This document shows positions 9,929-44,769 of a stretch of DNA of 64,000 nucleotides, piece by piece. The position numbers and the translations under genes are program-made. The notes beneath the pieces are model-generated. The model made no database searches and was not told where the DNA came from. It saw only the letters and a program-made list of their open reading frames with translations. Within the stretch, counting starts at the first letter, position 1. The number at the start of each line of letters is the position of its first letter. This DNA is from Halobacteriales archaeon YIM A00013 (lineage in GTDB: Archaea > Halobacteriota > Halobacteria > Halobacteriales > Haloarculaceae), in the NCBI GenBank assembly GCA_025041195.1, contig JAKCFM010000002.1, forward strand, positions 1 to 64,000. Direction: 5' to 3'.

Positions 9929-10489
9929 ATGGGAGCAGTTGTTGTCGCCATGTCGATGTCACTCGATGGAATTATCGGTGGATCAGACGTCGATACCGAA
10001 CAGTTGCTTCACGAGTGGTTTTTCGAACCGTCCGAACGGAATGCCGAATACATCGATGAGTTACGAACCGCAATCGGAGCGGTTGTGATGGGTAGACGAA
10101 CGTATGAGGAGGGAGCCAGCGTGGACGGTTTCGTCGACAACCCGTATCCAATCGACCACTTCGTCCTCTCTCACGATGTCCCCGAGACAACTGCCGCCGG
10201 CGAGACCTCCTTTACGTTCGTTACTGCGGGTATCGAGAGTGCAGTCGAACAGGCATCTGGAGCGGCTGATACTGGTGTTGTCTGCATCATGGGTGGCGCA
10301 GAGACGGTTCAGCAGCATCTAGAGGCAGGACTAGTTGATAAACTGTGGATCCATCTCGTTCCAGTTCTGCTGGGGGATGAAATCCGACTGTTTGATACGG
10401 TCAATCCCACCCATATCGAACTGGAACCCACGAATGTCGTTGCGACACCAGCTGTCACGCATCTTCAGTTCGCCGTCGTTGGAAGATAG
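9929..10489 (+). CDS. dihydrofolate reductase / RibD C-terminal family protein
   Basis: The 186-residue single-domain protein shows the RibD_C/DHFR-like fold: SMSLDGIIGG near residue 10, VVMGRRTYEEG around 50-60, and the nucleotide-binding CIMGGAETVQQHLEAGLVDKL at about 116-136. Such stand-alone proteins are NADPH-dependent reductases of uncertain substrate, often called dihydrofolate reductase family. Its role may be pteridine or flavin related or detoxification. No operon partner. Confidence 0.88.
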   Translation: MGAVVVAMSMSLDGIIGGSDVDTEQLLHEWFFEPSERNAEYIDELRTAIGAVVMGRRTYEEGASVDGFVDNPYPIDHFVLSHDVPETTAAGETSFTFVTAGIESAVEQASGAADTGVVCIMGGAETVQQHLEAGLVDKLWIHLVPVLLGDEIRLFDTVNPTHIELEPTNVVATPAVTHLQFAVVGR

Positions 10490-10680
10490 TTCATGAAGTC
10501 ATGTCCGTCGCTTCTTTGGTCTTTGTTGTGACCACTTCGTAAGGCAATGATTCCTGTGTCCACTCGGAATGATATACTGTGTGAATCACTACCGAGAGCG
10601 GTGAAATAATTGCAAGTTGCGCTTCGGTGAACCATCCTCGGCCGAGAAACGAACCGAGCGGTCGACCTCCCCTCGTCTGC

Positions 10681-18052: not shown

Positions 18053-18229
18053 TTGAATATAGATACACATGCAATATATATGTGTGTTGCCGGACACTGC
18101 TGGAAATTGGCCCAACCGTGTGTATTATATATGTATTCTCAGGATATTAGGACAGTAGAAAAATGTTCTATTCTAGATCACAGATTGAAAGAACCGCATC
18201 AACGTGTGGCTGGATGTCAACGTTGTAAC

Positions 18230-28824: not shown

Positions 28825-29961
28825 TCAGGAACTCAGACCAAGTGCAGCCGCGATGTCGAGCAACCCGGCACCCTGTTCGGTACTGGCCAACCCGATATCT
28901 TCTGCAGTGTCTGTGAGCTGTTGGCGTGCCTCCGTATTCGAATAGCCCTGAGCCATCAGCTGCCCGCCAGCACCAGCGACGTGTGGGCACGACATTGACG
29001 TGCCACTGAGCGTTTCATACCCTCCGTTGGTGTATGTCGAATAAATGTCTGCACCGGGCGCTGCCAGTTCGACCTCGGATCCGGTTGATGAAAACGAAGC
29101 GAGGCCGTCGGAGTCGTTCGTTGCGCTCACCGCAATGCACTCCGGTTCCGCTGCTGGATATCCCACACAGTCTGTACATGGTCCGCTGTTTCCAGCGGCA
29201 GCAACCAGGAGCACTCCCTTCCCGTATGCGTACTCACAGGCATCTTCGACCACTGCCGATTTGCTACCACCCAAACTGAGGCTTCCAACGTCCCAGCCCT
29301 GGTCGGCCACGTATTCGATGCCTGCTGCGACATCCGAGTACGATCCACTGCCACGCTTGTCCAACACTTTGACGGCGTGCAGCGTTGCCTCCGTGCTCAC
29401 GCCAACGACACCCTCGGTGTTATCGACTGCGTCAGCCGTGCCAGCACAGTGGGTCCCGTGGCCATTGTCGTCATCCCAGTCGTACGCACACCTGCCCTTA
29501 CAGCTGACCATAGCGACGCCTGAACCCAGATTCGACTGGAGGTCTGGATGGTCACTGTCAATACCGCTGTCGATGATGGCGATGTCTGCTCCGCTTCCAG
29601 TGTAGCCGCTGTCGTGAGCAACGTCTGCGTCAACGCGGTCGATTCCCCACGGGGTCGACTGGGAAAACGCGTGCAGTTGACCGTTCGGCTCGATATAGCG
29701 GACATCAGAACGTTGCTGTAAGCCATTAAGCGCCTGCTTTGGGACTCGGAGCGTTACAGCATCGAATGAAAAGTCTCGGACTTTCGCTGTGGCAGCTCGC
29801 TCAGCTGCGACACGCCCTGCAGTGTTTTTGAATCCGATGTTTACTTCTATCTCGGTGGTTGGATGTGCAGTGGCGAGTCCACCCGCAGCCACGAGCGCTG
29901 TGGTCCCCCCCATTGTCTGGAGTAGCTGTCTCCTCGTTAGTTCACTGTTTGCCATTCGCAT
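28825..29961 (-). CDS. Tat-secreted subtilisin-like serine protease (halolysin type)
   Basis: From ATG 29961 the protein has 378 residues. It carries a Tat signal (LTRRQLLQTMGG), an inhibitor I9-like propeptide (about 38-95) and an S8 domain to the end. The catalytic triad is complete: Asp in AIIDSGIDSDHPD, His in GHGTHCAGT and Ser in GTSMSCPHVAGAG. Haloarchaeal halolysins usually have an extra C-terminal domain; here the chain ends just after the catalytic domain. ATGs at 29976 and 29955 are alternatives. A TATA-like tract at 29986-29999 favours 29961 or 29955. It probably degrades extracellular protein. Confidence 0.93.
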   Translation of the reverse strand: MRMANSELTRRQLLQTMGGTTALVAAGGLATAHPTTEIEVNIGFKNTAGRVAAERAATAKVRDFSFDAVTLRVPKQALNGLQQRSDVRYIEPNGQLHAFSQSTPWGIDRVDADVAHDSGYTGSGADIAIIDSGIDSDHPDLQSNLGSGVAMVSCKGRCAYDWDDDNGHGTHCAGTADAVDNTEGVVGVSTEATLHAVKVLDKRGSGSYSDVAAGIEYVADQGWDVGSLSLGGSKSAVVEDACEYAYGKGVLLVAAAGNSGPCTDCVGYPAAEPECIAVSATNDSDGLASFSSTGSEVELAAPGADIYSTYTNGGYETLSGTSMSCPHVAGAGGQLMAQGYSNTEARQQLTDTAEDIGLASTEQGAGLLDIAAALGLSS

Positions 29962-30264
29962 ACCCAACCCAAACATATTATTGGGTTATATTATACTTAT
30001 TGGATAATATATTATAATATTGGTAATTAGACATGAAGAGGTGTTTTCATATGATTATAGGTATGGGGATAGCCATTGTTGGCTATACAGAGACCTCTGT
30101 CCCAACCAATATCATCGTTCACGGCTTGGGTGCAACCTCGGTGACAATCGACGACGGAAGCGAGCCTTGAGACTGCGACGGCGGCAGGGGTCCCGTAACA
30201 GGGCACGATATCGGGATTGCTGAGCGAAAATAGCCACACATTCGAGCCGTACTGGCACCGATTC

Positions 30265-32817
30265 CTACTGATGCTTGTTGAGGTATTTTCCGGCCGACCA
30301 TCCCCAGATATTATCATCTAGCCAGTGGACTCCCCACCATGTGTAGCCATCTTTGTGCACCGGACCATTCATAATCTCACCGACCGTTCCTGGTGTCATC
30401 GTTTTCAGTACGCGTGAGTTCGTACCGGAGCGATGGCGAGTGTTCAGATTGACCGTTGCGGTCACTCGATCTCCATCACTGAACTGTTGGCCCGAACTCC
30501 CAGTGTTGTCGTTACTGCCCCCGCCAGTTCCACCCCCACCATCACTGGACTTGAGATATTTCCCAGCTGACCACCCATGAACGCCGCTGTTATTCCATCG
30601 GATCTTCCACCATGTGTACCCACCTTTCTGGATAGGGCCATCGGTGATCTTACCGGTCGCTCCGGGAGACATTGTTTTCAGTACGCGTGAGTTTGTGCCG
30701 GGGCGGTGTCGAGTGTTCAGAGTGACCGTCGTGGCCACTTGCTCTCCATCACTGAACTGTTTTCCTGAACTCCCGGTGTCGTCACCACTGTCATCGGTAC
30801 TCTCGTCACTGCCGTCGTTGTTGCCACTATCATCACCGTTGACGAGTGCCATGAATTTTCCCCAGTCCCACGTGGAACCTGGGTCAGTGTGGTCGTTCGG
30901 ACCACAGTCCGCTTCAGGGACCTGGTGATGGCCGATGATACCGCCACCGGAGGTTGCATCACACGGTGCAACGCCCGATGGGCGGCGTTTCGGGATATTA
31001 TACTGTTCACACAGGTTACGGACGATCGCGGCAGACTTCTGGTACATCGCATCGGTGAACGTCGTTTTCCCGACGTGACCCTCGTGTTCGATCCCGATTG
31101 AATGACCATTGTAGTTCTGCCCCCCTGCGTGCCACGCGACGTCCTCGTTGCGTACCATCTGGGTTGTGTGACCGTCGGCGTTGCGAATTACGTAGTGAGC
31201 GCTTACGTTCGAATTGGGATTCTTGAGCCAGCTAATCGATCCCGAGTAGCTCCCCTCCGTGACGTGGATCACGATCCAGTTGATCTTTTGTGCACCACGA
31301 GACGCACTCGTGTAATTGGTCGAATGCGCGGGATCCCATGCGTCTGCATCACTACTCGCATTGTCCCCGCCGCCACCGCTGCCATCACTGGGTTTGAGGT
31401 ACTTCTCGGCCGACCAGCCGTGGACAGAACTGTTCCACTGGACTTTCCACCACGTATAGCCATCTGCTTGCGTAGGCCCGGCAGTGACCTCCCCGACTGT
31501 TCCGGGTGTTACAGTATCACGGACGGCCGAATCAGTACCGGGGGTAGTTCTGGTGTTCAGATCGGCTGTTGATGCAACTTGATCACCATTGTCGAATCGA
31601 TCACCAGATTCATTGCTGTCATCACTGGGTTTGAGATACTTCTCGGCCGACCAGCCGTGGACAGAACTGTTCCATTGGACTTTCCACCACGTATAGCCGT
31701 CTGCTTGCGTTGGTCCATCGGTGACCGCTCCGACTGTTCCGGGTGTTACAGTATCACGGACGGCCGAATCAGTACCGGGGGTAGTTCTGGTGTTCAAATC
31801 GGCTGTTGAAGCAACCTGATCACCATGGCTGAACTGCCCACTAGATTCATCGCTGTCATCATCTTCGGTGTTGCTCGGTTCGTCAGTGGAGGGCAACGAT
31901 TCCGCTTGATACATCTCCTGGACAATGCGTTCTGAGAGCGCATCCATATATCCCGAATGGTCGTCTCCAACCTGGGACGTTACGTCGTGCTCCGTGTAGT
32001 TTGACGGCGGTCTGTTACCGCTCTCAATGCCGGACTCCCCGAGTGCCTGGTCGAACTCACCGACGTTGAACCATGTCAGGGCATCGTCCTCCCAGCTGTG
32101 GTAGTTGAACGTGTGTCCAACTTCGTGAACGAATGCTTTGTGTGATGTTGGATGCTCAGGAGTCGGTGTCTCATTGTCGATTGCGGCCGCAAGCATACTC
32201 ACAGTGTCGATTTTGTAGCCTTTGCTCTGCCAAGTCGGGCTTTCCCGAAGCGTCCGAAGTGCATACGTGACGACACGTGCTCCGAGCGAATGGCTTATAA
32301 GTCGGAGGATGCCATTCGGACAGGACTGTCGATACTCCAAGAGGAATCGGGCCAACTTTGGCCCGTTCTTTTCAGCAGCCGTTTGTGCCGGGTTGAAGGA
32401 TGTAAAATCCGTTCCCCCGATATCGGAGTCCCAACTGAATCCAACTACGTTGCCAGAGTATCCAGCCGAGTGCAACTTCTGATTGTAGTGGGCAATCTTG
32501 TCCATGGCCTTGGATTTTGCTTTGGCACCGGCTGCGTCTTTCTCCCAACCGTGGACGACGACGGTGAGTTCTGGGGCACAGCTACGACTGACACCGGGGA
32601 CGGTGCCACGTGTGTCGTAGTCAGTTTTCGTGTGACCATCCGTTAGCAAGATCTTTTCTCCGGTATACTGTCTCCCGTTCCACGTTTGTTTCTGCGCGAA
32701 GTGATCCCGTGTCGTGATAATCGGTATTTTAGGAGTTGATTTGCTCGTAACCGCACTTGATATGGTGGACATTGCAGTCACCGTGAGTCCGGTTTGAAGC
32801 AGCTGTCTCCGTTTCAT
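30265..32817 (-). CDS. Tat-secreted alpha/beta hydrolase-SH3x2-amidase-SH3x2 protein
   Basis: From ATG 32817 this protein has 850 residues and an unusual five-part plan. A Tat signal is at 1-25 (KRRQLLQTG). A lipase-like alpha/beta hydrolase covers about 35-300, with VVVHGW near 86 and nucleophile elbow SHSLGAR near 175-181. Two almost identical SH3 domains (about 330-396 and 407-476) form a 79-residue tandem repeat visible in DNA with a 237-bp period. An N-acetylmuramoyl-L-alanine amidase (Amidase_2/AmpD type) at about 510-655 has zinc ligand H518 in VIHVTEG, H630/H631 in GHHQVP and D645 in HTDPG. Two further SH3 domains follow (about 688-756 and 778-847), joined by acidic Gly/Ser linkers. 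Amidases cut the MurNAc-peptide bond of murein. The hydrolase domain is related to the secreted protein at 48964-49869. An upstream TTG at 32832 is less likely. Confidence 0.9.
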   Translation of the reverse strand: MKRRQLLQTGLTVTAMSTISSAVTSKSTPKIPIITTRDHFAQKQTWNGRQYTGEKILLTDGHTKTDYDTRGTVPGVSRSCAPELTVVVHGWEKDAAGAKAKSKAMDKIAHYNQKLHSAGYSGNVVGFSWDSDIGGTDFTSFNPAQTAAEKNGPKLARFLLEYRQSCPNGILRLISHSLGARVVTYALRTLRESPTWQSKGYKIDTVSMLAAAIDNETPTPEHPTSHKAFVHEVGHTFNYHSWEDDALTWFNVGEFDQALGESGIESGNRPPSNYTEHDVTSQVGDDHSGYMDALSERIVQEMYQAESLPSTDEPSNTEDDDSDESSGQFSHGDQVASTADLNTRTTPGTDSAVRDTVTPGTVGAVTDGPTQADGYTWWKVQWNSSVHGWSAEKYLKPSDDSNESGDRFDNGDQVASTADLNTRTTPGTDSAVRDTVTPGTVGEVTAGPTQADGYTWWKVQWNSSVHGWSAEKYLKPSDGSGGGGDNASSDADAWDPAHSTNYTSASRGAQKINWIVIHVTEGSYSGSISWLKNPNSNVSAHYVIRNADGHTTQMVRNEDVAWHAGGQNYNGHSIGIEHEGHVGKTTFTDAMYQKSAAIVRNLCEQYNIPKRRPSGVAPCDATSGGGIIGHHQVPEADCGPNDHTDPGSTWDWGKFMALVNGDDSGNNDGSDESTDDSGDDTGSSGKQFSDGEQVATTVTLNTRHRPGTNSRVLKTMSPGATGKITDGPIQKGGYTWWKIRWNNSGVHGWSAGKYLKSSDGGGGTGGGSNDNTGSSGQQFSDGDRVTATVNLNTRHRSGTNSRVLKTMTPGTVGEIMNGPVHKDGYTWWGVHWLDDNIWGWSAGKYLNKHQ

Positions 32818-32880
32818 ATCGTCTATAGACAATTGAGTGGTATATACTTCCTCTGGGAACAGAATATATATTTGACTATA

Positions 32881-33231: not shown

Positions 33232-34575
33232 ATGAATGCCAGTAATTCAATGTGGAATCCTGCGTTAGAGACGATGTCACGTGAAGATTGCAGGGAGTAT
33301 CAACTAAACAGACTGCAAGAGCAATTACAACATGCAAAAGACAACACCGAGTTTTATAACGAAAAATTATCGGATATCCGTCCAGAGAACATCACGACGA
33401 TGGAGATGGTGACGACCATCCCAACCACAACGAAATCTGAGATTCGAAACGCCCAACAGCTGGGTGATGGTTTGTACGGCAATCTTCTTGCAGTTGATAC
33501 GGAAGCAATCATCTCGTATCATCAGACATCTGGAACTACTGGAAGCCCGATTCGACAGAGTGACTCGCTCCGTGACTGGGAATGGTGGACTGACTGCTGG
33601 GCAACCGTGCTTTGGGCGCATGGGGTCCGTCCAGAGGATACCGTCTTTTTTCCGTTCTCCTATGGAGTCTTCGTAGCATTCTGGGCAGCTCACTCCGCTG
33701 CGAAACGAATCGGCGCCCAGGTTATCCCCGGTGGGGGGATGTCGTCAGTACAGCGTGTCGAAAAAATTGCCGACCTGAATCCCACGGTCGTCACTCTGAC
33801 GCCAACGTACGCCTTCCGACTCGCTGAGGTTGCTGCGCAAGAAGGGATCGATCTACGTGCGTCTGCAGTGGACACGATTATCTGTGCGGGTGAGCCGGGG
33901 GCAAGCGTAGCAAGCACGAAGAAGGCGTTAGAAGACCTCTGGGGGGCACAGGTGTACGATCATGCAGGAGCAACTGAAGCCGGTGCGTGGGGGTTTTCTT
34001 GCAGTAGTGATGATCTTGGCTTGCACGTCAACGAAGCCCGCTTTCTTGTTGAAGTCCTTGGTCCAGATGATGAGCCGGTGTCCCCGGGTTCCCTTGGTCG
34101 CCTTGTAGTCACACCGCTCAATCGTTATGCACAACCATACGTTCGCTTTGAACTCTCCGATCGGGTTCGGCTTTCTGAAAAGAATGAGTGTGAGTGTGGA
34201 CGGAGATACCGCTTCGTAGCGGGAGGTGTCCTGGGTAGGGAAGACGAATTCAAGACGGTTAATGGAACACTGCTGTCGCCCCGTACTGTCGAAGATATCG
34301 TTCACGGATTCGACGGCATACTGAATGAGTTTCACGTGCAGATCAAGGACCATCCAGAAAAAGACCTTGATACCATTGCCATTGCTGTTGAATCTGACCA
34401 GAACCACGATTACAGTACTCAACGCATTAGCAGGCAGTTACGCAAAGAGCTGCGACGGCACACCCACCTTACCTTCACTGTGAATGTGCGTCAATCCGGC
34501 ACCCTCGATAGAAACACACACAAAAGCAATCGATTTTCTGACCTTCGCCAACGGAGAGCCCAATATAGACAATGA
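33232..34575 (+). CDS. PaaK-like phenylacetate-CoA ligase / aryl adenylating enzyme
   Basis: The 447-residue protein belongs to the ANL superfamily in its PaaK branch. It has the P-loop-like TSGTTGSPIR at 99-108, the CAGEPG element near 218, YDHAGATEAGAWGF at 242-255 and a cysteine pair ECECGRRYR near 319. The C-terminal lid domain contains GREDEFKTVNGTLLSP near 335. Such enzymes adenylate an aromatic or acyl carboxylate and usually pass it to CoA. It is the first gene of a rightward operon with a small helical protein (ATGA overlap) and a UbiA prenyltransferase. With a chorismate lyase-like gene nearby, 4-hydroxybenzoate is a reasonable guess as substrate. Confidence 0.88.
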   Translation: MNASNSMWNPALETMSREDCREYQLNRLQEQLQHAKDNTEFYNEKLSDIRPENITTMEMVTTIPTTTKSEIRNAQQLGDGLYGNLLAVDTEAIISYHQTSGTTGSPIRQSDSLRDWEWWTDCWATVLWAHGVRPEDTVFFPFSYGVFVAFWAAHSAAKRIGAQVIPGGGMSSVQRVEKIADLNPTVVTLTPTYAFRLAEVAAQEGIDLRASAVDTIICAGEPGASVASTKKALEDLWGAQVYDHAGATEAGAWGFSCSSDDLGLHVNEARFLVEVLGPDDEPVSPGSLGRLVVTPLNRYAQPYVRFELSDRVRLSEKNECECGRRYRFVAGGVLGREDEFKTVNGTLLSPRTVEDIVHGFDGILNEFHVQIKDHPEKDLDTIAIAVESDQNHDYSTQRISRQLRKELRRHTHLTFTVNVRQSGTLDRNTHKSNRFSDLRQRRAQYRQ

Positions 34576-34787
34576 TTAGCGAAGAAAACACCCAAAAAAC
34601 TCCTGAAGAAACACTCAAAGAGATACGAACCCATACAGAAACGATTCGGGAAGAACTCACACAAATCGAGAACCTATCTGGGAGATGTCAAATTCCAGCA
34701 GTTGAGCGTACTACTCTGCAACTTCGCAGCGTTCTTCGGACCATGGAACTGCATATACCACCTTGTTTGGATGAGGGTGAAGAGTAA
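34572..34787 (+). CDS. small acidic helical protein, unknown function
   Basis: This 71-residue protein starts within the stop of the ligase gene (ATGA at 34572-34575), a strong sign that it is translated. It is Glu/Thr-rich and predicted helical, possibly a coiled coil (ETLKEIRTHTETIREELTQI), with two cysteines. No family recognised. Translational coupling suggests it assists the ligase, for example as a subunit. Confidence 0.6.
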   Translation: MISEENTQKTPEETLKEIRTHTETIREELTQIENLSGRCQIPAVERTTLQLRSVLRTMELHIPPCLDEGEE

Positions 34788-34943
34788 GCTTCGTAGGCAG
34801 ATACCCATTACAAAACGCAGATTTTTGGTGCTTGTACTGTTGCAGATAGCAATAAAAATGGTAGTGACGGTAATCACATCTTATCAGTTATTTTTACATC
34901 TCTAAATAAATTATAACTGTTCTCGGTAGGATCTATATAGCAT

Positions 34944-35903
34944 ATGGGAATTATACAAGACTGTGAGACCACACGGGCTAAGGCTTGGCTAATGGCCACC
35001 AGACCGATGACGCTCCCGGTGGGAGTGTCGCCAATTCTTATCGGCGCTGGGCTCGCGTTTCACCATGGTATCTTCGTGTTTGAGATTGCAGTGGCTTCAC
35101 TCGTGGCGAACTTACTCAATCAGCAGGGGACACATTTTGTAAATGACTATTATGATGCCATACGGGGAATCGATACCGATGAACGGGAGGGATTTGTACG
35201 CGTTACCCAGGCCGGACTTATTCCTACAGAGAATGTCAAGCGAGGGATAGTCGTAATCTACACCTTGATATTTCTAGCTGGAATCTATCCCGTTTACGTT
35301 GGTGGGATTCCAATGCTTGTGATGGGTATCGTGCTTGCAGTCGGTGGGTTTCTTTATGCGGGCCCCCCCTTGTATTTCGGAGATCTCGGTCTCGGCGATA
35401 GTACCATATTCTTAGGATTCGGAGTATTTCCTTCATGTGCCACGTACTACTTGATGGCAGTCGCAAATTCGGGGGTTGGACCGTTTCCCGTTGGACTACC
35501 CCCAGGAACTGTTCCACCTGTAGCGATCATCGCCAGTTTAGCAGCTGCAGGCTTTGCCACTGGCATGATGATAATAAATAATATTCGAGACTGTGAAACT
35601 GATGCAAACGCAGGAAAGCGTACGATTCCAGTTCGATTTGGGTATCAATTTACCCGTCTCGAATTCATCGTTGTGATCGGAGTGGTGTATCTCGCACCGA
35701 TCACACTTTGGCGTGTATACGGATTCGAACTGTGGATCCTTCTCCCCGTTCTGTCGCTTCCGTATGCAGCTATTGTCATATATAATGTATTGACCAACAC
35801 TGATAGTGCGTTAAATCGCACCCTGATCAGAGAAGGACATCTAACATCGTTGCATTCTATATTGTTCACCCTTGGATTGGTTATTCCACAATTTATTAGA
35901 TAG
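34944..35903 (+). CDS. UbiA superfamily prenyltransferase (MenA-like)
   Basis: The 319-residue integral membrane protein has about eight to nine spans and both Asp-rich motifs of the family. NDYYDAIRGIDTD is at 67-79 and NNIRDCETDANAGKRTIP at about 212-229. The GKRT ending of the second motif is typical of MenA (1,4-dihydroxy-2-naphthoate prenyltransferase). Such enzymes join an isoprenoid diphosphate to an aromatic ring at the membrane. Haloarchaea need a MenA for menaquinone. Whether this is that gene or a paralogue acting on a benzoate-derived ring cannot be decided here. It is 156 bp after the small helical protein and likely in its operon. Confidence 0.9.
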   Translation: MGIIQDCETTRAKAWLMATRPMTLPVGVSPILIGAGLAFHHGIFVFEIAVASLVANLLNQQGTHFVNDYYDAIRGIDTDEREGFVRVTQAGLIPTENVKRGIVVIYTLIFLAGIYPVYVGGIPMLVMGIVLAVGGFLYAGPPLYFGDLGLGDSTIFLGFGVFPSCATYYLMAVANSGVGPFPVGLPPGTVPPVAIIASLAAAGFATGMMIINNIRDCETDANAGKRTIPVRFGYQFTRLEFIVVIGVVYLAPITLWRVYGFELWILLPVLSLPYAAIVIYNVLTNTDSALNRTLIREGHLTSLHSILFTLGLVIPQFIR

Positions 35904-35940
35904 TTTATAATATAACGTAGGGTAAGTGTGGTAAAAGGGT

Positions 35941-35972
35941 TGGGGGAGTGGGTTTTTCACCCAAACTCCATC
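35941..35972. terminator. possible bidirectional terminator between convergent operons
   Basis: TGGGT and ACCCA around a TTTTC loop, flanked by gag and aactc, form a short hairpin at about 35949-35964. It lies in the 103-bp gap between the prenyltransferase and the convergent FAD monooxygenase. A terminator role is inferred from position. Confidence 0.35.
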
Positions 35973-36006
35973 TGTTGGTGGGCAATTGCTTTGTTACTCG
36001 TTTGTA

Positions 36007-37230
36007 TCAGTAGAACTGCGTGGCATCTGGATTTTTGCGAGGACCATACGGTGCGTCGTCGAGCCATTCGCCGGCTCCCTCCCAGCATCTGGCCAGTTTC
36101 GCAGCGGCAGTCTTCTTGATTTTCGTTGTTAAGCGATTACTCTGGAGGTGCTCAAGGGCTTTTCCAGCGGCATATTTGTTATACTCAGCTGCCTTCTTTC
36201 TTCGCGTCCCATATCGTTTGATTTCAGCCTCCGCAATCGAGGCAGTCTCTGCAGTAATGGCCACTGTGATGGCCGAGGCGGCCCCATCTGCGTCGGCGAT
36301 TCCCGAGTTCATTCCTCGTGCGCCAAATGGGGCGAATAAATGAGCGGCTTCACCTGCGAGCAAGATGCGTTGGTGAGCGTCGACAAAGGAGTCCGCTGTA
36401 ACTTGTTTGAACGTATACTGAGAAATCCAGGAAATACGGGATCGATATCGTTCTCCCAGGACAGTCGCTACCATTTCGCTTGCAATCTCTTCAGTTTCGA
36501 ATTTTGCTGGGTCGTCGGATTGGTTGCATTGGATGTCAACCCGCCACCCGCCCGTAAACGGAATAATCAAGACATTTCGTCCGCCAACACCTGGGTGACT
36601 ATAATGGAACACTCGCTCAACTTCCCGAGGATCTTCAGGTGTTTCTTCAACATCGATGACAATAAATGAATTTTCCGACGCTTCTCCTTGAAAATTTGCA
36701 TTAATCCCGTTACGAACTGTCGACCCAGCTCCATCAGCACCAACGAGATACTCTGTTCTCCATACGTCACCATCGACAGTTTGGACGCGAACACCATCCT
36801 GCTGTTGTTCTACGTGTTCAACTTCAGAACTCCAGTGTATGGTTCCGCCCTGGTGATTGAACGCCTCTCGAAGGATTGATTCGGTCATGCTCTGTGGAAG
36901 ACTCGTAAAATGCGGTAAATCACCAGCCCCTCCTGGATCAGAATACGTGCGTGAAAATATTTCGTTGCCGTGCCAAAGCGTTCGTCTGGTTGGCCATATG
37001 AGGCCTTTTTGAGCGATCTTCTGGCCTACTCCGGGATACATCTGCTCTAGCCGATGGAGCGTTGAGCCATGAATGTATATCGCACGGGTTCCGCTTCGGT
37101 TTCGATCCCTCGAATCTGCTTCAAGAATGATTGCCTCGACGCCCCGCGCACGAAGGGCAATCCCTGTTGCTAATCCGGTCGGACCGGCTCCGACGATGAG
37201 GACTGGTGCTGATTTGTTACTGGTACTCAT
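36007..37230 (-). CDS. FAD-dependent aromatic monooxygenase (PheA/UbiH type)
   Basis: The 407-residue flavoprotein shows the N-terminal Rossmann motif GAGPTGLATGIALRARG at 14-30, EYLVGADGAGSTVR (the DG motif) at about 160-173, and the second FAD motif LLAGEAAHLFAPFGARGMNSG at about 290-310. This is the class A (single-component) aromatic hydroxylase layout, which inserts one oxygen into a phenolic ring using NAD(P)H. It is last in a leftward operon after the chorismate lyase-like gene (30-bp gap). A ring hydroxylation step in the same pathway is inferred. Confidence 0.9.
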   Translation of the reverse strand: MSTSNKSAPVLIVGAGPTGLATGIALRARGVEAIILEADSRDRNRSGTRAIYIHGSTLHRLEQMYPGVGQKIAQKGLIWPTRRTLWHGNEIFSRTYSDPGGAGDLPHFTSLPQSMTESILREAFNHQGGTIHWSSEVEHVEQQQDGVRVQTVDGDVWRTEYLVGADGAGSTVRNGINANFQGEASENSFIVIDVEETPEDPREVERVFHYSHPGVGGRNVLIIPFTGGWRVDIQCNQSDDPAKFETEEIASEMVATVLGERYRSRISWISQYTFKQVTADSFVDAHQRILLAGEAAHLFAPFGARGMNSGIADADGAASAITVAITAETASIAEAEIKRYGTRRKKAAEYNKYAAGKALEHLQSNRLTTKIKKTAAAKLARCWEGAGEWLDDAPYGPRKNPDATQFY

Positions 37231-37260
37231 TGTAACTGATTGGAGGAGGGTAGAGATTGC

Positions 37261-37785
37261 TCACTCCCCAATGAACGTTTCAATTTTATCTTTTGGAAAA
37301 TACTCTACGATATTCATAATACTGGCCTTTTTGTGGTGGATACTGTACGTCCGCTTGAGTAGCTCACTGGTGTTTGCGGTAATGAACGACGGAAATTGCT
37401 CTTGTGTTGCTATGATATCGAAATCCATGAGCTCACGGAATGTCTCGAACCGCTCGTTCCAAAACATGGCACCGATACCAATCTCTTGCTCACGGAGCAT
37501 CGCCTCATATTGCGGATCAAGACTCTGTAAGTCAACCTCAGACGTTGCCCAAACCAATGGGTCAGGATCTACCGGGGATTCTAGCGCCACCCTGCGATAG
37601 AGCGTTTCTCCACGAATATGTCGAGCGAGAATAGTTACTGTGATTGGGTGGCCAGTGAGTGCCTCAAGCATACGTGTGACAGTTCCATCATGAGTAAGAA
37701 GGACGCGCTCAATTGGAGAGAACCTATTCTCATCGATTCGCATCTGTCGAGTATTGAATGACGTAACTGATTGTTTTGGTACCAT
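37261..37785 (-). CDS. chorismate lyase-like protein (DUF98/UbiC family)
   Basis: The 174-residue protein fits the DUF98 chorismate pyruvate-lyase family, which includes mycobacterial enzymes that release 4-hydroxybenzoate from chorismate. Family features are LTHDGTVTRMLEALTG (30-45), RRVALES (64-70), SEVDLQSLDPQYEAMLREQ (82-100), EIGIGAMF (101-108) and the C-terminal RTYSIHHKKASIMNIVEYF. It lies between the O-methyltransferase (120-bp gap) and the FAD monooxygenase on the same strand. Such genes are rare in haloarchaea as far as I know. The product would feed the ligase and prenyltransferase of the facing operon. Confidence 0.82.
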   Translation of the reverse strand: MVPKQSVTSFNTRQMRIDENRFSPIERVLLTHDGTVTRMLEALTGHPITVTILARHIRGETLYRRVALESPVDPDPLVWATSEVDLQSLDPQYEAMLREQEIGIGAMFWNERFETFRELMDFDIIATQEQFPSFITANTSELLKRTYSIHHKKASIMNIVEYFPKDKIETFIGE

Positions 37786-37905
37786 GGATCAACAGAATAC
37801 TCCGCGATACATATATTTACTTGCATATCTAAATATAGTGGAAAAACTAAATAGGACCTGAAGATGCTGATTTGTAATAGTACAGAAAATCAATTCGAAA
37901 TATAT

Positions 37906-38922
37906 TCAATTAGTGGTGGCATGGATGGCACCTAATAATTTGTTTTCTGAGAAATTAGTTTCTGTATGCTTCCATCCACTGCGGTTGAGGAGCGATTTGT
38001 ATTCATCCACGGTGCGTTCACGGCCATCTGCCCAGACAATCATCTGCATATCGTAGAGCGAACCGAAATGAGCCGGCTCTGCGTTGGGTATTACATGTTC
38101 AATCACGAGGAGCTGTGCATCATCTGGCGATTGCTCGCGTACTGTGGAAAGTAACTGGATAGCTTGGATATCACTCCAATCATGGATGATGTGCTTGAGT
38201 AGATACATATCAGCATGAGGAACCGCTTCGAACATGTCGCCACAAGCATATGAACAGCGATTAGCGACGCCGAATTCATTTGCTAGTTGGAGTGTGTCTG
38301 CTTCGAGAAGCGGGGATTGGTCGTATACAGTGCCTGTGAGTGATTGATACTCTGAGAGAAGCATACACAGCAGATAACCGTGACCACCACCAATATCACA
38401 GGCGTGACCTTCTTCTGCGATGGGCGAGGAAGATAACAACTGCCGAATTTCGGTGGCGTGCAGTCGTGAGTAACTTCTCATTCCATCGTTCACCATCATT
38501 GCAGTTTCGAGATTTGCTGCCAGGTACTCGAAAAGTGGCTGTCCAAACTCACGAACAAATGTATTTTGTTCACCATCTGCGATCAGTTCGGGGAGATGTT
38601 TCCAGAGGTCGTTACTTAACTCACTAGTCTCAAATAACAGATACTCAGTAATCGATTCTGTATGATCTTCGGAGAGATATTCACCTGTCGGCGTCAGCGA
38701 GTATCCCGCTTCAGATTCCGTGAGTACCCCTAGCGTTACAAGTGACCGGAGCAACCGATTGCCGTGATCAGGGTCAATATCCAACGCGTTTGTTATCTCT
38801 CTGCTATCTCTCGGCTCTGTTCCAACCGCTTCGAATACACCAACCCTGATTCCTACGCCGAGAATTCGCCCACGTGTAAGTCCAAATACTATCTCTCGGA
38901 TGTCTTCTTTTGCAGATTTCAT
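37906..38922 (-). CDS. SAM-dependent O-methyltransferase (Methyltransf_2 type)
   Basis: The 338-residue protein has the two-domain plan of small-molecule O-methyltransferases. An N-terminal winged-helix dimerisation domain (about 10-95, with ITNALDIDPDHGNRLLRSL) precedes a Rossmann SAM domain. The SAM domain has CDIGGGHGYLL near residue 174, LKHIIHDWSD at about 245 (HDW motif with the catalytic-type His) and LLVIEHVIP near 272. Relatives methylate phenolic hydroxyls of plant and bacterial metabolites or quinone precursors. It is the first gene of the leftward operon. The ring it acts on is probably the product of its neighbours. Confidence 0.9.
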   Translation of the reverse strand: MKSAKEDIREIVFGLTRGRILGVGIRVGVFEAVGTEPRDSREITNALDIDPDHGNRLLRSLVTLGVLTESEAGYSLTPTGEYLSEDHTESITEYLLFETSELSNDLWKHLPELIADGEQNTFVREFGQPLFEYLAANLETAMMVNDGMRSYSRLHATEIRQLLSSSPIAEEGHACDIGGGHGYLLCMLLSEYQSLTGTVYDQSPLLEADTLQLANEFGVANRCSYACGDMFEAVPHADMYLLKHIIHDWSDIQAIQLLSTVREQSPDDAQLLVIEHVIPNAEPAHFGSLYDMQMIVWADGRERTVDEYKSLLNRSGWKHTETNFSENKLLGAIHATTN

Positions 38923-39322: not shown

Positions 39323-40351
39323 ATGGTTCAAATCTCTCGCCGAAGACTGATCCAGGGAGCAAGTGTAACTATGGTTGCCACTACGGGAATCGCAGGGTGT
39401 CTTGGTCGAGGAGGTGGATCCCTCGATTCCGTGACAGTCGCGTACGTTCCAATTTATCCGAACATGCAACATTACGTGATGGAACAAGAGAACTATTATG
39501 AGGACATCCCAGCGGATATCATAGTAGAGCGATTCAGCTCTGGTCCTAGCGTCGTAACGGCGTTTGCCAGTGGGGATGTCGACGTTGCCCTCTTTGGAAT
39601 CACCCCTGCGATGGTTCTCGTCGACAAAGGCACCAACGCGGGTATTCTCGCAGCCAATTCGAAAAACGGATTCAGGATCATGTCCACAACCGAGCTCGTC
39701 GACCTCTATGAACAGGAGGGTCCGAACACGTTCGAGCGCTTTGAGAAAGAGCATGGCCGCAAGATACGATTCGGTGGCCCTCCGGCCGGAAGCGTTCCTG
39801 ATATTGTGCTTCGGTATTGGATGCAAGAGGATCTCGATGTTGGCGAGATGGATAGCGTCATCACCAAGGTGAAAGTCTCGCCGGCAATGGCGGTCCAGAC
39901 AATCCAATCGGGTGATATCGACGCGACGATCATCCAAGAGCCGTTCGCGACGGTGATCGAACAGGATAACGGCTACGGCGAGCTCTCCTGGTCTGGAAGT
40001 ATTCTCAAAAACCATCCGGTTACGGTGTTGTTCGCGAATCAGAAGGTAATCGATGACAGAGCGATTTCGCAGTCGCTAGTCGAACAACATATCTCGGCAA
40101 CCGAGTTCACGGCAGAATCACCGGATACGGCTGCTGGTCATGCCGCATCGGTGATCGGTTCGGGAGTGAGCGAGAATCTCGCTACAGAGGCTGTGGACTC
40201 TAGGGCGTCTGCGTTCACTTCGAATCCCCATCATATCACCGACCAGGCGGCGACGATGTGTAAATTCGTCGCCAACGTCGGGAACATCGAAGAACCGATC
40301 GCGACCGAGAATCTGTTCGCGTACGAATCCTACGACGCCATTCAGGGATGA
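39323..40351 (+). CDS. Tat lipoprotein, TauA/SsuA-like ABC substrate-binding protein
   Basis: The 342-residue protein has a Tat signal with three arginines (SRRRLIQGA) and a lipobox IAGC with Cys26, so it is anchored on the outside of the membrane. The rest fits the NMT1/TauA/SsuA fold: VAYVPIYPNMQHYVMEQE, FASGDVDVALFGITPAMV, GGPPAGSVPDIVLRYW and a second SGDIDATIIQEPFA. This family binds taurine, sulfonates, nitrate, pyrimidine precursors and others. The ligand cannot be told. ATGA overlap links it to the permease. Confidence 0.88.
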   Translation: MVQISRRRLIQGASVTMVATTGIAGCLGRGGGSLDSVTVAYVPIYPNMQHYVMEQENYYEDIPADIIVERFSSGPSVVTAFASGDVDVALFGITPAMVLVDKGTNAGILAANSKNGFRIMSTTELVDLYEQEGPNTFERFEKEHGRKIRFGGPPAGSVPDIVLRYWMQEDLDVGEMDSVITKVKVSPAMAVQTIQSGDIDATIIQEPFATVIEQDNGYGELSWSGSILKNHPVTVLFANQKVIDDRAISQSLVEQHISATEFTAESPDTAAGHAASVIGSGVSENLATEAVDSRASAFTSNPHHITDQAATMCKFVANVGNIEEPIATENLFAYESYDAIQG

Positions 40352-41190
40352 GAAAACAGACTACTACTAGCTCCCACACGATGGTCGCCAACACTTTAGA
40401 GGTGGACCTGCAGCGGTGTCTGCGCGGATTGGGTGGTCTCTTCGTGTTCTTGCTTGTCTGGTGGCTTGGCGCAATGGCGACCCAGCCGTCGTATCTGGTA
40501 CCTGGCCCCCTCGATTCGGGGCGCGCGTTTGTCGACCTGTTCGCAACCTCGACTGCGATTATCGTCCCCGTCCTAGGCAACCGACTAGTCCTACCGACCG
40601 GATTTGCACATCTCGTACAGACGTTGTTCCATTACGTTCCGGGACTTCTCCTCGGTGCCAGCTGTGGTATCGGGCTTGGGATAACGATGGGCTGGAACGG
40701 TGCACTCGATGACTGGTTGCGGCCGCTCGTCCGGATGCTTCGACCAATTCCGCCACTGGCGTGGATCGTCTTTGCGCTTGTCTGGTTCGGCATTCACCAT
40801 ACCGGTGCGGCGTTCATCGTCTTCGTCGGTGCGTTCTGGATCAATTTCTACGGCGCGTACAGTGGTGTCGAAGGCGTCCCAGGCAAGCTGACCGATGCTG
40901 CATCAACGCTAGGCGTAGAACGAGAGCTTTCAATGCTCAAACTCGTCGCGCTACCAAACGCCGCTCCCCAGTTATTGACAGGATTCCGGACGAGCATGGG
41001 TCGGTGCTGGATGATTGTCGTTGGAGCAGAACTGTTCGGTGCACCCGGTGTCGGCTATGAGATCATCAACGCCTCGAACAATCTCGCGATGGCGACTAGC
41101 GTCGCGTACATGTTTCTGATCAGCTTGGCATTCCTCTGTATGGACGTTGGATTCCGATTCTTCGAACGGAGGGTTCTTGCATGGCGCTGA
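40348..41190 (+). CDS. ABC importer permease, TauC/SsuC-like
   Basis: The 280-residue membrane protein has about six spans and the BPD_transp_1 core. The EAA-like loop reads AASTLGVERELSMLKLVALPNAAPQLLTGFR around 188-218. It starts inside the stop of the binding-protein gene and overlaps the ATPase gene by 10 bp, so all three are one transcription unit. Confidence 0.92.
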   Translation: MRKQTTTSSHTMVANTLEVDLQRCLRGLGGLFVFLLVWWLGAMATQPSYLVPGPLDSGRAFVDLFATSTAIIVPVLGNRLVLPTGFAHLVQTLFHYVPGLLLGASCGIGLGITMGWNGALDDWLRPLVRMLRPIPPLAWIVFALVWFGIHHTGAAFIVFVGAFWINFYGAYSGVEGVPGKLTDAASTLGVERELSMLKLVALPNAAPQLLTGFRTSMGRCWMIVVGAELFGAPGVGYEIINASNNLAMATSVAYMFLISLAFLCMDVGFRFFERRVLAWR

Positions 41191-41990
41191 ATTCGAGCTC
41201 ACCGTCCAATTGGGAGGGTAACGAGAAAATCAGCGCTCGGAATATCAGCAGATTCTATGGGTCAACCCGAGCACTCGCAGATGTTTCGTTTTCGGTTGCG
41301 GATGGCGAATTCTTCTGTGTGGTGGGTCCCTCGGGTTGTGGGAAGACCACGCTGTTACGTGCGATAGCTGGTCTCGAAGACGTAGATAGCGGCTCGGTTG
41401 TGATTGACGGGGTCCCAGTCACCAGTCCAGATCTGAATCGCGGAATGGTTTTTCAAGAGTACGCACTGTTTCCCTGGCGAACCGTCCGTGGAAACATCCG
41501 GTTTGGTCTCGACCGTCCCTCGTGTGAGTGTCCGGACTGCGAGACACGGGTTCAGGAGTTGGTCGACCTCGTTGGACTTGATGGCTCCGAGGACGCGTAT
41601 CCGAAGGAATTGTCCGGTGGTATGAAACAGCGTGTCGGGATAGCACGCGCGCTCGCCGTCGATCCGGAGATCCTGTTGATGGACGAACCCTTTGCTAGTG
41701 TAGATGCTCGAACACGTGACCGCCTGCATGCCGAATTGCTCGACATTTGGACCCAGACCGAACAGACCATCGTGTTCGTCACGCACGACATCAACGAAGC
41801 GGTGACGTTGGCCGATCGCGTGCTCATCATGGACGACGACCCTGGAACTGTCCAGTCTATGGTTACTGTCGATATTGACCGTCCACGCCAGCGGACAGCC
41901 CAAGCGTTCGTCGAATACGTCATTCAGGTCAGAGATGAGCTCGGCACATCGCATTCTGTTACCGAAGAACCGTTAATGAAGGATATTTGA
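41181..41990 (+). CDS. ABC importer ATPase, TauB/SsuB-like
   Basis: The 269-residue ATPase has Walker A GPSGCGKTT near residue 52, Q-loop MVFQEYALFPWRTV near 90, signature LSGGMKQRVGIARAL near 142, Walker B ILLMDEPFASVD near 164 and the switch His in VTHD. Two extra cysteines occur in CECPDCETRV near 114-123, an uncommon small insertion. It completes the TauABC-like importer. Confidence 0.93.
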   Translation: MALNSSSPSNWEGNEKISARNISRFYGSTRALADVSFSVADGEFFCVVGPSGCGKTTLLRAIAGLEDVDSGSVVIDGVPVTSPDLNRGMVFQEYALFPWRTVRGNIRFGLDRPSCECPDCETRVQELVDLVGLDGSEDAYPKELSGGMKQRVGIARALAVDPEILLMDEPFASVDARTRDRLHAELLDIWTQTEQTIVFVTHDINEAVTLADRVLIMDDDPGTVQSMVTVDIDRPRQRTAQAFVEYVIQVRDELGTSHSVTEEPLMKDI

Positions 41991-42008
41991 CATTAAAGAG
42001 TAATCAAT

Positions 42009-42035
42009 ATCTATAAAAATTTATTATCCATAGAT
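42009..42035. promoter_or_regulatory. promoter-like element before the ECF genes
   Basis: ATCTAT (42009-42014) and ATAGAT (42030-42035) are inverted around AT-rich DNA containing tataaaa (42012-42018), about 70 bp upstream of the CbiM-like ATG. It may be a TATA box for a separate promoter of the ECF genes. The evidence is weak. Confidence 0.3.
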
Positions 42036-42084
42036 GTCCAACAAGGTAAGATTATTATAATTGCATCCATATTTGTTAAAACGG

Positions 42085-42765
42085 ATGGCACACATTCACC
42101 TCGGAGAAGGGACATTCCCGCTGTGGGCACTGCTTTTCTGGACACTCCTTGGCGTTGGACTGATCGGTGCTGTGGTGTATCGGGTCCGGAAGGGAGGTAT
42201 CGAGACACACCAGATCGCTCTCGCGGGTATCGGCGCGGCCGCGAGTTTCGCGATCTTCCAGTTGAACATTCCCGTGTGGGGTGGCATCCACATGAACCTC
42301 ACCGGTCTCGTTGGGATCCTTGCCGGGCCGCTGCTCGGGGTACTCATCACGCTGGTCGTGAACATCTTCTCTACGGCGGTCGGACACGGTGCAATCGGTC
42401 TGCTCGGTGCGAATACGCTTGTCAACGCTACCGAAGCCATTGTCGCCTACTACGCGTTCAAAACGTTGCTAGGGATGGATTGGGACATTTTTCCAGCCAG
42501 CACAAGTGCGGCGACGCTTGGGCTCTCGGTAGGGGCCTTCCTGATGGGTGCGATCATCGTCATCAGTGGTGTGAACGGGAGCGCATTGCCTCGTGGTGAA
42601 CTGACGATAGCCGTCGCAGGTTTAGTTGGGCTCAATCTCGGTGTCGCCGTCATTGAGGGAATTCTCACTGGCTTTATCATTCGGTTTCTAGTCTCCGTTC
42701 GGCCCGACCTCATTGGGATCGTCGATCGTGGTACACGAGAAGAGACGACCGGGGTGACTGCTTGA
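42085..42765 (+). CDS. CbiM-like ECF transporter S-component
   Basis: From ATG 42085 the protein has 226 residues and about seven spans, with the CbiM/NikM pattern. Canonical CbiM starts MHIxDG and has a GTSGHL-type metal loop. Here the N-terminus reads MAHIHLGEG and the loop is NIPVWGGIHMNLTG, so both metal-contact sites are altered though His-rich. VGHGAIGLLGANTLVNA matches the family's later motif. CbiM proteins import Co2+ and NikM Ni2+. The changed motifs leave the substrate open. An in-frame TTG at 42061 is less likely. The next gene starts in its stop codon (TGATG). Confidence 0.82.
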   Translation: MAHIHLGEGTFPLWALLFWTLLGVGLIGAVVYRVRKGGIETHQIALAGIGAAASFAIFQLNIPVWGGIHMNLTGLVGILAGPLLGVLITLVVNIFSTAVGHGAIGLLGANTLVNATEAIVAYYAFKTLLGMDWDIFPASTSAATLGLSVGAFLMGAIIVISGVNGSALPRGELTIAVAGLVGLNLGVAVIEGILTGFIIRFLVSVRPDLIGIVDRGTREETTGVTA

Positions 42766-43088
42766 TGCAGCGATGGAAACAGTACGGCGGGCTCGCTGGC
42801 CTGTTTGCGGTTTGTCTTGCTGCTGGGTTGTGGGGCTTTCGCTCTACTGGCGGCGCACTCCCGTGGGCAAAGCGCTCCGCAAAGACACTCCACCGTGGCG
42901 TAAACGAAGGCGGCGGCGTGCTCATTGACTTCGGTCGCGGTATCGTTGTAGCTGGTCCGATCCGAAAGAACGGTATGATAATCGAGTTTGTTGCACTCGT
43001 TCTCTTGCTCGTTGTCCTCGGAGTCGGCATGTACGTCTACGCGGACCGCTACGGCGGTTTCGACGACGAGGAACACACAGCACCCTAA
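42765..43088 (+). CDS. CbiN/PDGLE-like small membrane component
   Basis: The 107-residue protein has two spans (about 8-24 and 68-86) joined by an extracellular loop (RSTGGALPWAKRSAKTLH), the topology of CbiN or PDGLE-domain proteins that support CbiM in metal uptake. It is coupled to the CbiM-like gene by overlapping stop and start. Identification rests on topology and gene order more than on sequence. Confidence 0.65.
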   Translation: MQRWKQYGGLAGLFAVCLAAGLWGFRSTGGALPWAKRSAKTLHRGVNEGGGVLIDFGRGIVVAGPIRKNGMIIEFVALVLLLVVLGVGMYVYADRYGGFDDEEHTAP

Positions 43089-43090
43089 TC

Positions 43091-43903
43091 GTGACGACAC
43101 TCTCGAATCACGTCCCGGACCCGCGACTCATCACGACCATTGCCGAGCGGCGGGACGGACTATTGCACCGCGTTAATCCTTGGACGAAGGTCGGTATCGG
43201 TGGCGCCCTCGTCATTGCCGTCACGGTGTTCGACCGGTTCGCGCTTCTGTCTGGACTGTACGGCGCCGTGCTGGTCGTGTATGGGCTCGGAAAATTACCC
43301 TTCCAACGGCTGGCTGGCTGGTATACACTTCCGATGCTGTTCATCATTTCTGTCGCCGGGCCGCTGGCGTTTCTTGAGCCAGGTACACCAATCGGTGGTG
43401 CGCTCTCGACATCGCAGGGTGAACTCTCGGTCACGTGGGCGGGACTCGTTCTTTTCTTGGAGCTCAGCTTTCGATCACTTACGGTCGTCACATTCACTTT
43501 GACAGCGTCGATGACCACAGAATACTCCGATATCGTGTATGTGGTCGGACGGCTGCTCCCCCGGCCACTCGATCAGATCGCGTTACTTACGTATCGGTTC
43601 ACGTTCGTCATGCTCGAGACACTCGAGAACCTAGTAAAAGCCGCACAATCCCGAGGTGCGAACTTCTCGGAGTTCTGGTCGAACAAGCGGCTGTACGCGA
43701 GAATCTTCGGTATGACAATGCTATCGGCAATTGAGAAATCCGAACGGCTCGTCAAGTCGATGGAGGCCCGCGGTTACAACGGTGACATTACACTGTACGG
43801 CGATGTCTCGGATCCACCGGCACACGAACTGGTCGTCGTCCTCGGCTCCTACGCTGTTGTTGTCGGCTACGCAACGTTCGTGGTTTATGGGGTGGGACTG
43901 TGA
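43091..43903 (+). CDS. CbiQ-like ECF transmembrane component (EcfT)
   Basis: The 270-residue protein begins at GTG 43091. It contains HRVNPWTKVG (about 26-35), the usual start of EcfT proteins. Four to five spans follow, and ARG motifs AAQSRGANFSEF and KSMEARGYNGD contact the ATPase. It couples CbiM to ATP hydrolysis. Confidence 0.9.
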   Translation: MTTLSNHVPDPRLITTIAERRDGLLHRVNPWTKVGIGGALVIAVTVFDRFALLSGLYGAVLVVYGLGKLPFQRLAGWYTLPMLFIISVAGPLAFLEPGTPIGGALSTSQGELSVTWAGLVLFLELSFRSLTVVTFTLTASMTTEYSDIVYVVGRLLPRPLDQIALLTYRFTFVMLETLENLVKAAQSRGANFSEFWSNKRLYARIFGMTMLSAIEKSERLVKSMEARGYNGDITLYGDVSDPPAHELVVVLGSYAVVVGYATFVVYGVGL

Positions 43904-44769
43904 GCCTGGACGAGGTACCGCTGGTCAATCTACGGTGTGAGGCGCACACGTATCCTGACGGAACGGTCGGGATACACGACATAGAGTTTAGCGTTTACCC
44001 GGACGAAGTCATCGCGCTCGTCGGTGGCAACGGAGCTGGGAAATCGACACTCCTCGAACATCTGAATGCGACACTCGTTCCCGGCGACGGCGAACTCGTA
44101 ATCGACGGCACGCAGATCACCGAGAACAATATATCATATGCTAGGGAAGAAGTTGGCATCGTTTTTCAGGATGCCGATATGCAACTCGTCGCACCTACGG
44201 TTCTTGATGATGTGATGTTCGGCCTCCAGAACTACGGCATCCCCGACGACGAATCGAAACAGCGCGCTCGTGAGGCGCTCGCAATTGTCGACGCAGGCCA
44301 CCTCGAAGACCAGATTCCCCACTACCTGAGCGGCGGGGAAAAACGCCTGGTCGGCATTGCTGGCGTGCTCGTCCTCGAGCCGAGCGTCGTCGTACTAGAT
44401 GAACCGCTCGCGGGCCTTGACCCTGAGCGCTCCCGACTGGTCACCGACCGGATTCGGCAGATTCACGAGAGGGGTATCAGTGTCGCCTTCTCGACTCACG
44501 ACCTCGACTTTGCTGCAACGGTCGCAGATCGTGTTTGCGTGATGGCTGACGGTACGATCGTTGAGTGCGGGACCCCCCGAGAGGTTTTCTACGACGACCC
44601 GTTGTTGGCGAAAGCGAATCTTCACCCGCCGAGTGCAGTTCGTGTGGCTCGTAATGCAGGGTTGGGAGCACAGCCAGTGACGGAAGCTCATCTTGTTGCA
44701 CTCCTCACGGGAGCTTGCAACTCGGAAACCGACCAGACATTACCACCAGATGGTAGCGAACACGTCTGA
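43900..44769 (+). CDS. CbiO-like ECF ATPase (EcfA)
   Basis: The 289-residue ATPase starts at GTG 43900 overlapping the previous stop (GTGA). It has Walker A GGNGAGKST near 42, Q-loop IVFQDADMQLVAPTV near 88 (the ECF-type QxPD-like form), signature LSGGEKRLVGIAGVL near 141, Walker B VVVLDEPLAGLD near 163 and switch STHDLDF. It ends the CbiMNQO-like operon. Confidence 0.93.
   Translation: MSLDEVPLVNLRCEAHTYPDGTVGIHDIEFSVYPDEVIALVGGNGAGKSTLLEHLNATLVPGDGELVIDGTQITENNISYAREEVGIVFQDADMQLVAPTVLDDVMFGLQNYGIPDDESKQRAREALAIVDAGHLEDQIPHYLSGGEKRLVGIAGVLVLEPSVVVLDEPLAGLDPERSRLVTDRIRQIHERGISVAFSTHDLDFAATVADRVCVMADGTIVECGTPREVFYDDPLLAKANLHPPSAVRVARNAGLGAQPVTEAHLVALLTGACNSETDQTLPPDGSEHV

Follow-up and report, generated by a model that had tools for sequence, protein, structure and literature searches.

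A second MenA-type prenyltransferase in a haloarchaeal gene cluster predicted to make a prenylated aromatic from chorismate

The class Halobacteria is known for naphthoquinones (menaquinones). In cyanobacterial plastoquinone synthesis, a chorismate lyase provides 4-hydroxybenzoate (4-HB), a UbiA-type enzyme acts on 4-HB and hydroxylation comes later. The Rv2949c chorismate lyase of mycobacteria and 4-HB activation serve phenolic glycolipids, the product being extended by polyketide synthases. Another prenylated benzoquinone is the methyl-plastoquinone of Nitrospira (PMC12324825). Haloarcula sp. D1 converts 4-HB to gentisate, hydroxylating C1 while the carboxyl group migrates (Fairley et al. 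2002, as cited in PMC3572157). Here, we describe a gene cluster of Halobacteriales archaeon YIM A00013, a haloarchaeon with a genome of 3.73 Mb, that resembles each of these systems in part. It lies in the first 64 kb (hereafter, the window) of the 745,770-bp contig C2 and encodes MenA2, a second prenyltransferase of the MenA type, together with a PaaK-type ligase, a DUF98 chorismate lyase-like protein, a class A flavin monooxygenase (FMO), an O-methyltransferase, and a small protein.

We consider it quite likely that these genes specify a pathway of their own, dedicated to a prenylated aromatic and distinct from that of menaquinone. The full mechanism that we propose, from chorismate to a prenylated one-ring quinol by a menaquinone-like rather than ubiquinone-like route, seems to us evenly balanced between right and wrong. 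More tentative still is the identity of the product. It may be a 2-polyprenyl-1,4-benzoquinol, with O-methylation in some species, formed via gentisate by a neofunctionalised MenA in cells that also make menaquinone, and would then be a new prenylquinone.

With the MenA step of menaquinone synthesis the cluster shares enzyme family, motifs, and the predicted decarboxylative prenylation of an ortho-carboxylated para-quinol made as a coenzyme A (CoA) thioester, whereas MenA2 differs in clade, in acceptor-side residues, in linkage to genes of 4-HB/gentisate type instead of menD, menB, and menC, and in its predicted one-ring substrate. The likeness to cyanobacterial plastoquinone and the Nitrospira compound lies in the predicted product class, and a chorismate-lyase origin is shared with cyanobacteria; unlike the cyanobacterial pathway, hydroxylation is predicted to precede prenylation, and the archaeal host has menaquinone as well. 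The catabolism of Haloarcula sp. D1 is matched in FMO family (judged from gene context), CoA activation, and a predicted gentisyl-CoA/gentisate intermediate, but here there is no gentisate dioxygenase, 4-HB would come from chorismate, and gentisate would be prenylated rather than cleaved. As in the mycobacterial system, a PF01947 lyase is paired with a 4-HB adenylating enzyme, although here a prenyltransferase is linked to them.

Conservation and distribution of the cluster

The original prediction described five open reading frames (ORFs) in two convergent operons. All five are intact and uninterrupted at exactly the positions given and pass curated Pfam cut-offs (Table 1); the ligase and MenA2 form the forward run and the other three the reverse run, with 103 bp between the stop codons of MenA2 and the FMO. 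A sixth ORF, of 71 codons, had been missed. The GC content is ∼48% in the cluster and 52% in the window.

Table 1. Genes of the cluster, with positions in the window and predicted roles
Gene product	Position	Strand	Remarks
PaaK-type adenylate-forming acyl-CoA ligase, predicted 4-hydroxybenzoate:CoA ligase	33232-34575	+	447 amino acids (aa); PF00501 + PF14535 (AMP-binding + AMP-binding_C_2)
Small protein of 71 aa, possibly a PaaK partner	34572-34787	+	ATG overlaps PaaK stop codon; conserved
MenA2, MenA-type UbiA-family prenyltransferase; predicted decarboxylative prenylation of gentisate	34944-35903	+	319 aa; UbiA Pfam, TIGR00751
Class A FMO, predicted 4-hydroxybenzoyl-CoA 1-hydroxylase (NIH shift to gentisyl-CoA)	36007-37230	-	407 aa; FAD_binding_3 PF01494
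DUF98/Rv2949c-like chorismate pyruvate-lyase, predicted 4-hydroxybenzoate producer	37261-37785	-	174 aa; PF01947
S-adenosylmethionine (SAM) O-methyltransferase, genus-specific tailoring enzyme	37906-38922	-	338 aa; Methyltransf_2 PF00891 (127 bits) + Dimerisation PF08100

Actinarchaeum halophilum YIM 93972, a member of the same genus, has the entire cluster in synteny on its 844,905-bp chromosome 2, with the five enzymes 82%–92% identical (91% for the O-methyltransferase). Between the two congeners, dN/dS is 0.10–0.21 for the five enzymes, that is, they are under purifying selection, and 0.47 for the 71-aa ORF. A search of plasmids with tblastn recovered a third MenA2 (70% identical) from a plasmid of Halorussus caseinilyticus, where the order is ligase, 71-aa protein, a 300-aa protein that looks secreted, DoxX (on the opposite strand), and MenA2, followed by the convergent FMO and DUF98. 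The conserved core is thus the ligase, the 71-aa protein, MenA2, the FMO, and DUF98, in the same order in another genus. Given the synteny in YIM 93972, the low dN/dS values, and the recurrence of the core in Halorussus, the cluster is more than a chance assemblage, and the claim that these linked genes serve a prenylated aromatic made from chorismate, apart from menaquinone, holds up well: even in Halorussus the lyase and the monooxygenase stay linked to the second MenA. The Halorussus cluster has no O-methyltransferase, and the genes beyond it are unrelated. The O-methyltransferase, originally counted as a pathway member, therefore falls outside the conserved core. Within the Halorussus cluster (locus L096), the DoxX-family membrane protein (11328–11696) and the 300-aa protein with a twin-arginine-like start (10385–11284) are of interest in their own right, as DoxX proteins can have quinone links.

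Across 391 genomes of the class, a MenA2-type prenyltransferase occurs in two, the remaining listed matches being MenA proteins at ∼50% identity or less. DUF98 is found in five of the 391, in two of the 146 genomes of the family (equivalent to two of the seven of the genus), and in one of 28 in the Halorussus family. Wherever MenA2 is present (three genomes), DUF98 and the FMO accompany it. Scanning genome contigs with MenA2 returned YIM 93972 alone, and megablast of the cluster against plasmids gave no match. A Natrinema zhouii plasmid (L100, 6028–6939) carries a divergent MenA-like protein (43% identity) without the other cluster genes. A tie to the hyphae and spore formation of the genus is unsupported, given the patchy occurrence of DUF98 among its genomes and the presence of the cluster in Halorussus.

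Enzyme types and the supply of 4-hydroxybenzoate

MenA2 scores 124.5 bits against TIGR00751 (MenA; cut-off 102.15) and matches MenA models at E-values of 5e-36 and 5e-73, versus 1e-5 or weaker for UbiA/4-HB models, and so is of the MenA rather than the UbiA/COQ2 type. The ancestry of the FMO lies in the gentisate pathway. Homologues 55%–63% identical to it occur in ∼65 of the 391 genomes, and a gentisate 1,2-dioxygenase (bicupin) lies no more than 10 kb away at 14 of the 21 distinct loci examined, many of which also have genes for CoA ligase subunits, a 4HBT thioesterase, FAH, and IclR. None of these catabolic neighbours is found at the MenA2 loci, the one exception being that a distant FAH-family gene flanks the cluster of Halorussus, and the three cluster FMOs fall outside the catabolic group (split support 95, with the root unsure and a long outgroup branch). 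The best assignment of the family is as a predicted 4-hydroxybenzoyl-CoA 1-hydroxylase, based on the gentisate-linked homologues, the NIH-shift route of Haloarcula sp. D1, and the gentisyl-CoA thioesterase described in Bacillus halodurans (PMC516016). From its sequence, the FMO might alternatively hydroxylate salicyl-CoA or 3-hydroxybenzoyl-CoA, although the adjoining chorismate lyase favours 4-HB. Incidentally, a Streptomyces goshikiensis plasmid (L099, 9989–11137) has a 46% identical FMO beside aminodeoxychorismate synthase, DAHP synthase, and AMP-binding proteins, in what is probably a bacterial chorismate-derived natural product cluster.

These enzyme types bear on the possibility of a ubiquinone-like order, in which MenA2 would prenylate 4-HB with the carboxyl kept, FMO hydroxylation and O-methylation would follow, and the PaaK-type enzyme would serve another purpose. 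The enzyme classes do match those of ubiquinone synthesis, and the FMO matches the Ubi-OHase model TIGR01988 at E 6e-27. However, its 94 bits are far below the cut-off of 225 and its kin are the gentisate-pathway enzymes rather than UbiH/F, so that neither a UbiH/F/I hydroxylase nor, given the Methyltransf_2 type of the methyltransferase, a UbiG/UbiE partner is present. Furthermore, the prenyltransferase is of the wrong type for this order, the CoA ligase has no place in it, and ubiquinone-like compounds are missing from the published quinones. We regard it as improbable. The label "ubiquinone-like" in the original prediction fits only in part; the logic looks like that of menaquinone, applied to a benzene ring.

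The DUF98 protein scores 60.8 bits against PF01947 (gathering score 22), has Arg, Gly, and Glu positions that are invariant across six members of the family, and weakly matches its nearest solved relative, 2nwi, an archaeal DUF98 protein deposited as a hypothetical protein (E 4e-6). The ligase, 69% identical in the Halorussus cluster, is far below the cut-offs of the PaaK equivalogs (243 of 700 and 194 of 646 bits); it belongs to the PaaK family but is probably not a phenylacetate ligase and acts on another substrate. The 71-aa ORF, without a Pfam match, is 70% identical in YIM 93972 and 50% identical over 58 aa in Halorussus. It shares the motif IPAxExNAxxxRxVxxxL with ORFs downstream from PaaK in three other haloarchaea, in which DUF98, a 53%–56% identical ligase, and a related small ORF lie beside a GNAT acetyltransferase gene, without the FMO and MenA2 (L012, 9501–11843; L013, 6873–10539; L014, 9291–12996). 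This independent pairing of DUF98 and ligase supports the lyase product being the ligase substrate, and the module would represent a further, unexplored use of 4-HB.

That module also suggests a use in conjugation, and the PaaK-type enzyme could instead form an amide or ester of 4-HB (in the manner of BagE/FevW or flexirubin synthesis), with the conjugate then prenylated to give a phenolic or meroterpenoid metabolite. The ligase is indeed weakly similar to BagE/FevW and FlxY (NCBIfam), and an O-methyltransferase suits a tailoring role. Nevertheless, the MenA2 clusters hold no partner amine-forming enzyme or acyltransferase, the ligase retains the C-terminal domain of CoA ligases, and the kin of the FMO occur in CoA-thioester contexts, all of which make such a conjugate unlikely.

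MenA2 beside the menaquinone MenA

The genome has five UbiA-family genes. A second menA, the search for which was proposed in the original prediction, is present on contig C1, in a chromosomal menD-menB-menA-menC cluster that runs from position 1517997 on, with menA between menB and menC and menD just upstream. This rules out MenA2 as the sole MenA. MenA2 is not linked to men genes and is 44% identical to the chromosomal MenA, a counterpart of which is also present in Halorussus caseinilyticus (genome G400).

In a tree of 33 proteins (30 haloarchaeal MenAs and three MenA2s), the MenA2s form a separate clade (SH-aLRT 100). R20, N67, D68, D71, Y138, D216, D220, and K225 are retained in all 33, so MenA2 has both Asp-rich motifs and the UbiA-family Tyr (N67/D71/D216/D220/Y138). 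Seven swaps are fixed in all three MenA2s (Q22M, N64H, T139A, G141P, P144Y, Y147D, and Q171M), at positions that vary little or not at all among the 30 MenAs and whose residues, in several cases, are shared with UBIAD1. Residue T139 aligns with T175 of UBIAD1 and S140 of AfUbiA, within the polar cluster at the site of the new bond, and N102 of UBIAD1 aligns with the retained N67. The roles of the Mg- and diphosphate-binding residues and of the bond-forming polar cluster are known from AfUbiA (PMC4106721). MenA2 appears to combine retained prenyl-transfer machinery with a remodelled acceptor pocket, in which alignment would place the swapped residues.

It could be argued that MenA2 simply duplicates the menaquinone MenA, serving a different chain length or isomer, and adjoins an aromatic cluster by chance. 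MenA2 does pass the TIGR00751 cut-off, and the MK-8(H2) isomer (MK, menaquinone) of YIM 93972 is reported to differ from that of H. pleomorpha (PMC10067837). However, side-chain saturation is not part of the MenA reaction, residues otherwise conserved among MenAs are replaced, and the linkage with DUF98 and the FMO is kept across genera. We consider this explanation quite unlikely.

The proposed pathway and the flanking genes

The three genomes with MenA2 (G000, G183, and G400) lack gentisate dioxygenase, which the same search did find in five control genomes (G384, G312, G118, G418, and G419), two of them in the same genus. An ordinary 4-HB/gentisate catabolic cluster, as the catabolic FMO homologues and the CoA ligase might suggest, can be rejected as highly implausible on this ground, and also because a chorismate lyase produces rather than consumes 4-HB and a membrane prenyltransferase has no catabolic role. 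Without the dioxygenase, gentisate would not be cleaved by the usual route, leaving MenA2 as its obvious consumer. Gentisate is a para-quinol with an ortho carboxylate, the feature by which MenA recognises its substrate, 1,4-dihydroxy-2-naphthoate (DHNA); it is DHNA minus the second ring.

In the pathway that we propose, DUF98 would remove pyruvate from chorismate to give 4-HB, which the ligase, perhaps with the 71-aa protein, would convert to 4-hydroxybenzoyl-CoA. C1 hydroxylation by the FMO with migration of the thioester (NIH shift) would yield gentisyl-CoA, and an unlinked thioesterase would release gentisate (2,5-dihydroxybenzoate). MenA2 would then exchange the carboxyl of gentisate for a polyprenyl chain, producing a 2-polyprenyl-1,4-benzoquinol, the ring of which may be capped or decorated by the O-methyltransferase in the two Halocatena/Actinarchaeum species. 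The gentisate route is favoured because a single scheme then explains why the prenyltransferase is of the MenA type and why a ligase and a hydroxylase accompany it. We infer the reactions and their order, as we do the prenyl length, the site of methylation, and the role of the product, which might be a redox-active lipid, an antioxidant, or a signal.

Several points weigh against this pathway. The published quinones of YIM 93972, which carries the cluster, are MK-8 and MK-8(H2) only (PMC10067837). This profile disfavours an abundant new respiratory quinone, and a main respiratory benzoquinone is unlikely in YIM 93972. It should be noted that quinone analysis of this kind would miss a product that is minor, made only under certain conditions, or O-methylated (non-quinone). 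The CoA-release step is without an assigned gene, because a homologue of the catabolic gentisyl-CoA thioesterase was not found in the genome (one test, with no positive control). The cluster holds no dedicated prenyl-diphosphate synthase or C-methyltransferase and is carried by three genomes only. As for DUF98, its predicted chorismate lyase activity rests on the Pfam family: it reaches 32 of 175 bits against the cyanobacterial chorismate lyase equivalog, missing the cut-off, and its single-sequence structure model (pLDDT 36) is too poor for use.

Within the literature collection searched, nothing relevant turned up on prenylation of gentisate by MenA homologues or on archaeal prenyl-benzoquinones. 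If the proposed pathway is correct, haloarchaea, a group known for menaquinone only, would have a new way to a quinone-like lipid, and a benzoquinol derived from gentisate would give them a further redox-active lipid whose potential is probably higher. It would also be another way to build a prenylated benzoquinone, by joining a hydroxylase of the degradation type with a second enzyme of the menaquinone type, and would show how few residues are needed to turn the latter to a one-ring substrate. The occurrence of MenA and MenA2 in one cell would offer a clean natural experiment, with seven named residues and three species.

Genes for an NMT1-type ABC transporter (binding protein, permease, and ATPase), then CbiM-CbiQ-CbiO-type ECF genes, follow in the window (39323–44769). 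They are conserved in YIM 93972 but were excluded from the system, as the Halorussus cluster has no such neighbours. The protein encoded on the other side (30265–32832), of 855 aa, has SH3 repeats and, although from an archaeon, an N-acetylmuramoyl-L-alanine amidase domain; it is 92% conserved in YIM 93972. It adjoins a subtilisin-like protease (28825–29976) and a GH18/PKD/CBM protein (25960–27393), and the three are possibly secreted enzymes directed against bacteria. The genes at 14783–18115 and 45085–48759 each encode a large protein that carries TPR repeats together with a STAND-like NTPase domain.

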